Shown in pieces: positions 41,073 to 44,073 of a DNA stretch of 64,000 bases (positions are counted from its first letter, which is position 1; every line of letters begins with the position of its first letter). The DNA lies in contig NZ_ATWF01000001.1 of NCBI RefSeq assembly GCF_000421105.1, positions 1,933,407 through 1,997,406 on the forward strand, read 5' to 3'. This DNA comes from Limisalsivibrio acetivorans. Its GTDB lineage: Bacteria; Chrysiogenota; Deferribacteres; Deferribacterales; Geovibrionaceae. The notes under the pieces are model-generated. The model had not been told where the DNA came from, made no database searches, and saw only the letters and a program-made list of their open reading frames with translations. Made by a program: the position numbers and the translations under genes.

Positions 41073-41101
41073 TTGACAATTAAGATGCACGTTGCTATAT
41101 T
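41073..41101 (+). promoter_or_regulatory. Sigma-70-type promoter for the hfq-like gene
   Basis: TTGACA at 41073-41078, a 17-base spacer, and TATATT at 41096-41101: close to the ideal consensus. A small hairpin, CCCTC/GAGGG, follows at about 41118-41133 in the leader, before the ribosome site GGGGGAAG and ATG 41172. Confidence 0.8.
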
Positions 41102-41171
41102 TATGATCTGATAAGAGCCCTCTGCATTGAGGGTGTATATTACTTTAGTTGAGTTTTTCACCGGGGGAAGT

Positions 41172-41675
41172 ATGTCCATCTACGCTCAGATTGAGTTTGT
41201 CTTCATGCATAATGCGAGAACGAAGAACGTTCCGCTTATGTTTATTATGAGAAATAAGGAAAGATTTCGTGGAAAGGTTGTGGACTTTGATCAGTACCAC
41301 TTTGTTATCGATGATGCAGATATTAAGATTCTCCTTTCAAAGAAGGATATTGCAACCGTTGCCTCCGCAAGAACAGTTGTGGATATCGATTTCATAAGCA
41401 AGATTTACTACCACGCACACCAGGGAAAACACCCCAGACATACACGCCCACCCATGCAGGACATATTCCTCAACGAAGTGCGTAAATCGAAATCACCCAT
41501 CATAAGCTTCCTTGTAAACGGGGTTAAGATCCGTGGCTCACTCATCGGATTCGATAACTATACCATACTAACCTCCTTCGAAGGAAGGCAACAGCTCGTC
41601 TATAAAAGCGCAATTTCCACTGTGTTCCCCCTCTACCAGTATGGTGAGATCATAAAATACGACAACGAGAGATAA
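41172..41675 (+). CDS. hfq: Tandem-domain Hfq-like RNA chaperone
   Basis: A 167-residue protein with two Hfq/Sm domains, where normal Hfq has one of about 65 residues. Domain 2 (about 96-153) is a good Hfq: QDIFLNEVRKSKSPI, FLVNGVKIRGSLIGFDNY, and the Sm2 motif YKSAISTV (usual YKHAIST, so the central His is Ser). Domain 1 (about 4-66) keeps the pattern FMRNKERFRGKVVDFDQY-like (FIMRNKERFRGKVVDFDQ) but its Sm2 reads LSKKDIATV. A His-rich linker at about 80-90 joins them. Hfq binds small RNAs and mRNAs as a hexamer; two fused domains might form a three-chain ring (inference). ATG 41172 is chosen from the GGGGG ribosome site. Confidence 0.9.
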   Translation: MSIYAQIEFVFMHNARTKNVPLMFIMRNKERFRGKVVDFDQYHFVIDDADIKILLSKKDIATVASARTVVDIDFISKIYYHAHQGKHPRHTRPPMQDIFLNEVRKSKSPIISFLVNGVKIRGSLIGFDNYTILTSFEGRQQLVYKSAISTVFPLYQYGEIIKYDNER

Positions 41676-41681
41676 ACAAGA

Positions 41682-42059
41682 ATGAAAGACAAAATCAAAA
41701 TTTTAATTGTGGACGACGAAGAACACACCAGAATGGGATACAAAGAGGTTCTCGAAATGTCCGATTACGAAGCGGATGCAGCAGGAGATGCAAGAACAGG
41801 ACTGGAACTTGCCGGCAAAAAGCAGTACGACGTTATAATAACAGACCTGCGAATGCCCGAGGTGGACGGCCTCGCCTTCCTCGAAAGATTGCGCAAATTC
41901 GATGAAATATCTAAGGCCATCGTGATAACAGCCTTCGGCTCCTTTAAAACCTATAAGAAATCCCAAGATCTCGGTGCTGTGACATACCTCAATAAACCAG
42001 TTAAAGCTGCAGACCTCAAAGGCGCTGTGGATGAGGTTCTTGGAGACATAGGCTCCTGA
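41682..42059 (+). CDS. Single-domain response regulator
   Basis: A 125-residue receiver: VDDEE acidic pair, phosphoacceptor Asp in IITDLRMPEVDG, Thr in VITAFGSF and Lys in YLNKPVKAADL. The AFGS-x-K segment and KPVK resemble receivers of NtrC-type or sporulation regulators, but no output domain follows. It starts 6 bp after the tandem-Hfq gene and is followed by a terminator, so these two genes form one transcript. Pairing with an RNA chaperone is unusual. Confidence 0.93.
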   Translation: MKDKIKILIVDDEEHTRMGYKEVLEMSDYEADAAGDARTGLELAGKKQYDVIITDLRMPEVDGLAFLERLRKFDEISKAIVITAFGSFKTYKKSQDLGAVTYLNKPVKAADLKGAVDEVLGDIGS

Positions 42060-42065
42060 TAAAAT

Positions 42066-42103
42066 AACGGGCAGACCATTCCGGACTGCCCGTTAGTAAT
42101 TTT
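42066..42103 (+). terminator. Terminator of the hfq-response regulator operon
   Basis: AACGGGCAG (42066-42074) and CTGCCCGTT (42086-42094) form a perfect 9-bp stem with an 11-base loop, followed by AGTAATTTT. Placed between convergent genes, it may serve both. Confidence 0.85.
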
Positions 42104-42114
42104 AGGACCCTATA

Positions 42115-44073
42115 TTAGCCTTCGAATTCCTGTTCCATCCTGTCATAGATGCGCCTGAACTCATCCGTATCAAAGAGATTAAAGCTCTCTTCCATACGAA
42201 GCTTATTGTCCAGATACGCCTTAACAGTCGGCGCCTGAAAGAAGTTCACCGCAAACATGGTGGGATCGCCGCTGAAGGTCTTAATAAGATCCCCGTACTT
42301 CTCAGGAACCATCTCTAGCTTAACTATATTCTCAGCCAGACCCTCGCACTGCGACATTGTGTAGAATACGATGCTGTCTGGCCTGCCGTAAAGCTTCTCT
42401 GTATAAAGAACCGCCGCCATGATGAATTTGCGCAGCCTGTGTAGATTCCTCAAGCTGCTACCTGTTATGAACAGATCACTGCTCGATTTAGAGAAGATCC
42501 TGAAGGAATCCTCACCGGGCGTCTTGGTGAATTTTGTGGTTATCGTCATAGAGTTGGGATCCCCAGCCAGCTGCTCCTCAACTTCAGCACGGTTAATCAG
42601 ATTAAGCTTACTGTCCGTAAGACCCTTCTCATAGAGAAGCGCCGCAATACGGAAGTATGAAGCAAGGCTTAGTGAATCGGGCTCACGCTCTGGATGCCTG
42701 TAAGTGTAGTCCACAAGATTGCTATCAACCTTAACCACAGGGTTCTTCCCCCGAAGAGGGGCCTTGTCGAAGGTTATATCCTCATAGGAGCCCTCGGTAC
42801 TCAGCTCGGATATCTTACCGTCGTGGTAGTGGTAAACCCGCTCAAGCATATCAAGGGGGATTATCAGCTTTCTCCCCGATGCCTGATTCAGGAAGCGGAA
42901 GAAGGCCAGGATATCCATGGGGGAATTCAAGGGCTGGATAACCTCGTATAGCGTCCCCAGCTGTTCCGCTGTGTGGTATGTTATGAGGTTGAAAAGCTCT
43001 ATACCATCAAAGCGCTCCTCGCTGAGGATGACAATCACACGCTCAGGCCTGCTAGTTTCCGTCTTCTTATCGATGAAGTCACCGATCGTTCCATCTGAAA
43101 GCATATCAGCAAGTGGAAGATCACTCTCCGCCATGCCGTCCATGCTTATGGTTCCTATACCTGCAGAATAATGGTAATACTTCACGCCGCCTGGCGCCTG
43201 TATCATTATTAAACCGTCCGTTGCATACGTCTCCGGCTCCTCTTCGGGCTCACGCCTTATGAGAGGCTCTTCCGTGTCACCCCCCCCCTTGCCGTCCGAT
43301 GCATGGGGCGGTGCGGATGTAATCCCCTTCTCCGGCTCTGTCTCAATATCCTTTATCGGCTCGATATCGGACTCGGCATCATCACTCCTGCCGTCCGAAG
43401 CATGGGGTGGCGCGGATGTAATCCCCTTCTCAGGCTCAGTCTCAATATCCTTTATAGGCTCGATATCGGACTCGGCCTCCTTCTCCCCCTTTCCATCCGA
43501 AGCGTGGGGTGGTGCGGATGTTATCCCCTTCTCCGGCTCTGTTTCTATATCTTTCAACGGTTCAATATCTTGCAGCGGCTCTGTGCTGTTTTTACCGGAA
43601 GGGGTGTAGTTTGAGATAAAGTCTTCTTCGTCTTCCTTCTCCTCAGCCTTATTCATAAACATCTCTGTGGAGAGTACGGATTTAAACTCGTTCTCATCCT
43701 GCTCATCAGCTTCAACGGGAGCCTGTCTCTTGCGAACCTCAACGCCGAGGATATTAGGATCGGTGTCCTCCCTCTTCCTCGGTTCTTCGGTATCGATAAT
43801 AAGATCCGATTTAACGTGATACTCGCAGGCAAGGCGAACACCAGCGGAGAGTGTCATCTCCGAGAGGATCTTCCGCTCGGTCTTGCTCGGTTTTGCGAGG
43901 TTCTTCCCCTCCACCTTAACCTTGCATTTCCCGCACTGCCCGTTGCCTTCGCAAAGGTTATAGATGTCTATACCGTTGTCCTTAAGCAGCTTAAAAAGAT
44001 CCGTACCCGCTTTTGCCTCAAGGTTTCTGTCCAGATTCTTAACGTACACATTGAACTTTTTAGATAGAAACAT
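42115..44073 (-). CDS. 2Fe-2S ferredoxin-domain protein, RACo/DUF4445-like, with internal repeats
   Basis: A 652-residue protein. Residues 8-95 form a plant-type [2Fe-2S] domain with ligands Cys41, Cys47, Cys50 and Cys83, in the style of reductive activators of corrinoid proteins. Residues about 100-290 are acidic, low-complexity linker that includes three near-identical 33-34-residue repeats. The C-terminal 360 residues may be a strongly diverged ASKHA domain: near the end LRNLHRLRKFIMAAVLYTE and the segment after it follow the pattern of DUF4445, but the glycine-rich phosphate loops are missing. Perhaps an inactive activator turned sensor or scaffold (inference). Convergent with the response regulator. 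Confidence 0.7.
   Translation of the reverse strand: MFLSKKFNVYVKNLDRNLEAKAGTDLFKLLKDNGIDIYNLCEGNGQCGKCKVKVEGKNLAKPSKTERKILSEMTLSAGVRLACEYHVKSDLIIDTEEPRKREDTDPNILGVEVRKRQAPVEADEQDENEFKSVLSTEMFMNKAEEKEDEEDFISNYTPSGKNSTEPLQDIEPLKDIETEPEKGITSAPPHASDGKGEKEAESDIEPIKDIETEPEKGITSAPPHASDGRSDDAESDIEPIKDIETEPEKGITSAPPHASDGKGGGDTEEPLIRREPEEEPETYATDGLIMIQAPGGVKYYHYSAGIGTISMDGMAESDLPLADMLSDGTIGDFIDKKTETSRPERVIVILSEERFDGIELFNLITYHTAEQLGTLYEVIQPLNSPMDILAFFRFLNQASGRKLIIPLDMLERVYHYHDGKISELSTEGSYEDITFDKAPLRGKNPVVKVDSNLVDYTYRHPEREPDSLSLASYFRIAALLYEKGLTDSKLNLINRAEVEEQLAGDPNSMTITTKFTKTPGEDSFRIFSKSSSDLFITGSSLRNLHRLRKFIMAAVLYTEKLYGRPDSIVFYTMSQCEGLAENIVKLEMVPEKYGDLIKTFSGDPTMFAVNFFQAPTVKAYLDNKLRMEESFNLFDTDEFRRIYDRMEQEFEG
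43290..43563 (-). repeat. In-gene tandem repeat, three units of about 100 bp
   Basis: Codes residues 171-262 of the ferredoxin-domain protein. Each unit contains DIETEPEKGITSAPPHASDG; unit spacing is 34 and then 33 residues. The DNA copies differ at silent sites (for example GCGGATGTAATCC and GCGGATGTTATCC), so the repeats are not brand new. Confidence 0.95.

Follow-up and report, generated by a model that had tools for sequence, protein, structure and literature searches.

The window, by which we mean the whole 64,000-nucleotide stretch of Limisalsivibrio acetivorans DNA that was analysed, carries on its forward strand a gene for a 167-aa protein (positions 41172..41675; ATG at 41172, stop codon at 41673-41675) that matches PF17209 and has homologues in 25 Deferribacterota genomes. 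This tandem Hfq protein is composed of a divergent N-terminal Hfq/Sm domain (residues 3-65; 41178..41366), a conserved linker (residues 66-94; 41367..41453), a C-terminal Hfq domain (residues 95-154; 41454..41633) and a conserved C-terminal tail, YQYGEIIKYDNER (41634..41672). A strong sigma-70-type promoter, TTGACA-17-TATATT, lies upstream on the same strand (41073..41101), with 11 of 12 matches and a TG before the -10 hexamer; the original prediction had called it near-perfect, and both hexamers are retained 5' of the tandem gene in two relatives of another genus (L004 and L046). Direct reading of the sequence also gave a likely ribosome binding site, GGGGGAAG (41163..41170, forward strand). 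Six base pairs 3' of the tandem gene begins a second forward-strand gene (41682..42059), which encodes a single-domain receiver of 125 aa with an intact phosphorylation site. The two-gene operon ends at a strong terminator-like hairpin (42065..42095, forward strand; -19.6 kcal/mol, z -3.8) that sits between convergent genes and could serve either strand. The gene convergent with the operon (42115-44073, reverse strand) codes for a protein of 652 aa that has a 2Fe-2S ferredoxin domain (PF00111) at its N terminus and a repeat, EPIKDIETEPEKGITSAPPHASDG, in its interior; this gene adjoins the tandem/receiver pair in several families.

The two fused Sm domains had been proposed in the original prediction, with borders that agree with those obtained from PF17209 (residues 11-69 in the N half and 95-154 in the C half). 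The whole protein scored 113.7 bits against this Pfam model, in two stretches. When each half was searched alone, both exceeded the cut-off of 27 bits, the C half clearly as Hfq (89.7 bits) and the N half at 30.5 bits (E 2.7e-7). With NCBIfam TIGR02383 (cut-off 61.7 bits), the C half scored 76.4 bits, whereas the N half, at 19.4 bits, fell below the cut-off. By hhalign, a profile of 20 N halves matched the canonical Hfq profile with a probability of 96.8 and the C-half profile with a probability of 95.9. An AlphaFold2 monomer model of moderate confidence (mean pLDDT 65.5, pTM 0.44; nine related sequences as input) placed a helix and five strands in the Hfq order in each half: H3-17, E21-26, E31-39, E43-48, E51-56 and E60-65 in the N half, and H97-106, E109-114, E119-127, E131-136, E139-144 and E148-153 in the C half. 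Folded alone, the N half matched Hfq crystal structures with a Foldseek probability of 1.00 and a TM-score of up to ~0.8 on the target. The original prediction was to be given up if the N half matched no Sm/Hfq profile or took a different fold; since the N half exceeds the Pfam cut-off by itself and its fold matches Hfq crystal structures, that claim stands. In the tandem protein, a single chain carries two Hfq/Sm domains.

A second, single-domain hfq, for which a search of the genome had been suggested, is present 3' of miaA (G000:C1:116056), and the tandem protein is therefore an extra paralogue. This canonical Hfq has Q8, K56 and H57 intact, and it largely keeps the residues with which E. 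coli Hfq contacts RNA at the proximal and distal sites. It shares its fold with the tandem protein, whose C half is ~49% identical to it over the core, but differs in having a single domain, all RNA-contact residues intact and a short acidic tail.

Across the phylum, the tandem gene was found in 25 of 51 Deferribacterota genomes, belonging to six families (f1, f2, f3, f5, f7 and f8), and in none of the 51 did it occur without canonical hfq. Families f4 and f6 (20 genomes, 13 of them at least 90% complete) yielded no Hfq of any kind. Canonical hfq alone was present in three f10 genomes and in G026; because G026 is a fragmented assembly, the absence of the tandem gene there may be a gap. Two f9 genomes (1.3 Mb) carry canonical hfq and, with no receiver, a two-part Hfq-like ORF (L062 5386-5850; L063 5860-6336) encoding a protein of ~150 aa whose C part is Hfq-like but degenerate and whose N part is unrecognised. 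As Sm similarity could not be detected in the N part (hhalign probability 0.1-1.0), this ORF was rejected as a degenerate tandem and excluded from the count. Outside the phylum, no full-length match was obtained at E<=1e-5 in a thin sample of 385 genomes; the tandem type of sphingomonads was encountered only via a plasmid collection. Separately, in the distant family f20 (three genomes of ~1.5-1.6 Mb) we observed two adjacent paralogous genes that each combine an N-terminal winged-helix-like region with a C-terminal Hfq domain (L096 2857-3927; L097 2618-3621; L098 2568-3553). This HTH-Hfq fusion pair adjoins efp-accB-accC-like genes, is found besides a single-domain hfq, and merits separate study.

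The RNA-contact residues of both halves were tabulated for 20 loci in E. coli Hfq numbering. For known Hfq, the reading of uracil is assigned to Gln8 and the aromatic residue at position 42, contact with the free 3' hydroxyl of sRNAs to His57, and stacking with adenine on the distal face to Tyr25 (PMC5379935). In the N half, position 8 is E and position 9 is F at all 20 loci, with loss of Q8 and D9; I25 stands in place of Y25 and K29-E30-R31 in place of G29-I30-K31 (each 18/20); and D40 and K56 are invariant (20/20). In the C half, Q8, D9, F11, N13, R16, K17, D40, Y55 and K56 are each present at 20/20 loci and G29, V30, Q52 and T61 each at 18/20, and most distal-face residues are retained. H57 is absent from both halves (0/20 in each), being replaced in the C half by S, N or T. 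RNA-contact residues have been lost asymmetrically between the two halves. The proximal set Q8/K56/H57 is incomplete throughout, with Q8 and K56 in the C half and K56 only, next to E8, in the N half; the tandem protein is therefore classed as an Hfq paralogue and not as canonical Hfq.

The linker is His-rich in this species at residues 81-90, as originally read, and its predicted helix (residues 72-82 in the AlphaFold2 model) and strong conservation argue that it is no loose tether. Its motif, D-[IV]-[DE]-[FY]-I-S-K-x-Y-Y, and the tail motif EIIKY, which is found in all aligned rows, are retained even in the distant f5 sequences, and the motif NKERFRG is also conserved. Values of dN were 0.03-0.08 in both halves and 0.02-0.06 in the linker, with dS saturated or >1. 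The N half, the linker and the C half are all under strong purifying selection. In a domain tree, the N halves form one separate starred group; because this tree rests on 60 columns and has long branches, it does not decide whether both halves originated from the local canonical hfq.

The receiver scored 94.2 bits against PF00072 over residues 7-116 of 125, and its DD, D, T and K residues are all present in 20/20 aligned orthologues. Judged by these residues, it fits the single-domain response regulators (CheY-like) with an intact phosphorylation site. No kinase gene is adjacent to it. A receiver orthologue (E<=1e-20) was found in the same 25 genomes as the tandem gene and in none of the 26 others, a co-occurrence that is partly inherited, the absences stemming from few lineages. 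At every locus examined, the receiver lies directly 3' of the tandem gene, including those of f5, where the tandem protein is only ~43% identical, and the starts that were measured fall at -14 to +6 bp relative to the stop of the tandem gene. The 5' neighbours vary by family: dnaN-recF-gyr occurs only in f1, and elsewhere we read from sequence an ArsR-like gene, MoeA with a pseudouridine synthase, PlsX/FabH-type lipid genes, or PheT with a peroxidase. A convergent ferredoxin-domain gene is common to many loci, though not to all. Because the 5' neighbours differ between families and the receiver is constant, the conserved unit is the tandem gene with its receiver, and this two-gene unit, with the receiver intact, is retained across the order. 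The operon with a lone receiver that had been proposed for this locus is thereby strongly supported. With 91 receiver matches in the source genome, a lone receiver is nothing unusual by itself; it is the constant partnership that is unusual. A link between phosphorelay and small-RNA control, also proposed originally, appears more likely given this constant linkage, and the pairing hints at a signalling switch on RNA control.

By contrast, the placement of the gene beside the presumed replication origin is not supported. dnaA lies at C1:2294306, ~320 kb away, and the dnaN/gyr neighbourhood is peculiar to f1. Between dnaN and the tandem gene there is no DnaA-box cluster, only a single box with one mismatch, and no sharp GC-skew switch occurs at the tandem gene within the window. 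Given the distance to dnaA, the lack of a box cluster and the lack of a skew switch, an origin link was rejected. The window has about three times as many near-matches to the DnaA box TTATCCACA as shuffles have (47 vs 14.8), and they are spread across it, unclustered.

The reading that we tentatively prefer is that the tandem protein forms a specialised RNA-binding ring of the Hfq type, made in addition to normal Hfq and co-expressed with its own receiver, and that this ring is a three-chain pseudo-hexamer under receiver control. Three chains would close into a ring of six units, with C and N halves in alternation. This would be the simplest closed form; the alternatives are a double ring and a ring shared with canonical Hfq.

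In a double ring, which we regard as unlikely, six chains would assemble via their C halves into an ordinary hexamer, and the six N halves would form a second ring, stacked or loosely tethered, or a collar for docking partners. The C half retains the Sm2 strand pattern QQLVYK..ISTV together with Y55, K56 and D40, and the 30-residue linker with its helix would be long enough for either arrangement. However, the C half has also lost His57, which is reported to be important for hexamer organisation in P. aeruginosa, to go by the title of reference 11 in PMC9228748. It is rather improbable that the tandem chain instead enters canonical Hfq rings, poisoning or re-tuning them, and that the receiver sets the amount of this chain that is free. 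The canonical and tandem genes are present together and absent together, f4 and f6 having neither, and the Sm2 strands are kept in both proteins alike; yet the joint absence is explained by two lineages, and canonical hfq occurs without the tandem gene in f10 and G026. The tandem Hfq could also act alone, the receiver being a mere co-transcribed neighbour with a separate target. The receiver does drift faster than the tandem protein (62% vs 93-96% identity to G007), but the pair is unbroken in 25/25 genomes across deep divergence while the 5' neighbours change, and we consider such independence improbable. That the N half is a dead copy without function, as the loss of most of its RNA-contact residues might suggest, is extremely unlikely, such a decaying pseudo-domain being ruled out by the low dN against saturated dS and contradicted by the conserved NKERFRG, linker and tail motifs.

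In the three-chain ring under receiver control, the C halves would supply the remaining base-reading pockets, namely Q8, K56 and the aromatic residue 42 on the proximal face and Y/F25-G29-V30-K31 on the distal face, together with the R/K rim. The N halves, with E8, F9, I25 and K29-E30-R31, would break the six-fold repeat and may offer a surface that faces proteins or has an altered charge. With His57 missing from every unit, the ring would prefer internal U-rich or A-rich stretches to the 3' tails of sRNAs, or else depend on a further factor for holding RNA; a weaker dependence on sRNA 3' ends is predicted from the missing histidine. The receiver would be phosphorylated by a kinase encoded elsewhere, and would bind the ring and change its assembly or RNA access; candidate docking sites are the helix of the conserved linker and the EIIKY tail. 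As the receiver partner is constant, a phosphorylation-dependent contact is predicted. In its complete form, this amounts to an RNA chaperone under phosphorelay control: unlike units would alternate in a three-chain Sm ring that lacks the histidine for reading 3' ends, a co-transcribed receiver would switch the assembly of this ring or its access to RNA, and the ring would operate beside normal Hfq in several Deferribacterota families. With all of its parts taken together, we hold that description to be doubtful.

In many bacteria, Hfq is the central partner of small RNAs, and since its ring is normally symmetric, little is known of how work is divided among ring positions. As read here, the tandem protein is an asymmetric Hfq that has been fixed by evolution and tied to a phosphorylation-type input. 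If this reading is true, it would offer a natural system for testing the role of each ring half and would be the first case known to us in which a two-component receiver is directly linked to an Hfq-type chaperone. Each of the halves, like the linker motif and the two-gene unit, is small and easily expressed.

An extra Hfq beside the normal one is also found in Burkholderia. There, Hfq2 consists of a single Sm domain and a long tail, and we know of no receiver that accompanies it. A precedent for a signalling protein that controls the assembly of an Hfq ring is RelA-assisted Hfq assembly (PMC8060364), which differs in involving no receiver and in having single-domain Hfq as its target. Two Hfq-like proteins, possible paralogues, have been described in four Deferribacteraceae in the passages of PMC7074383 available to us, which mention neither a tandem architecture nor a receiver; the second of these proteins is probably the tandem paralogue or a part of it. 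Our search of the mainly open-access literature returned nothing direct on tandem Hfq in this phylum or on receiver-Hfq pairs.

The closest known system is the two-domain Hfq of Zymomonas mobilis (ZMO0347) and six other Sphingomonadales, for which a three-chain ring was suggested (PMC2877685). Tandem Hfq had been described in the original prediction as rare, with few reports, in agreement with what we found, the published type being the symmetric one of Sphingomonadales. That type is the one fitted by NF010691/PRK14091, the NCBI model for two-domain Hfq (cut-off 270 bits). A control protein from Sphingomonas parapaucimobilis (WP_281177287.1) scored 287 bits against it, whereas the tandem protein scored 84 of the 270 bits required and does not have the canonical YKH in both halves; membership of NF010691 was rejected on the score. 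The two types are alike in having two Hfq domains per chain, joined in the sphingomonad protein by a linker of roughly 25 residues. In the sphingomonad type, both halves are canonical, with YKH in each, and the gene neighbourhood is ntr-hfq-hflX. In the protein described here, by contrast, the halves are unlike, His57 is absent from both, the genome has a canonical hfq as well, and a receiver follows 3'.
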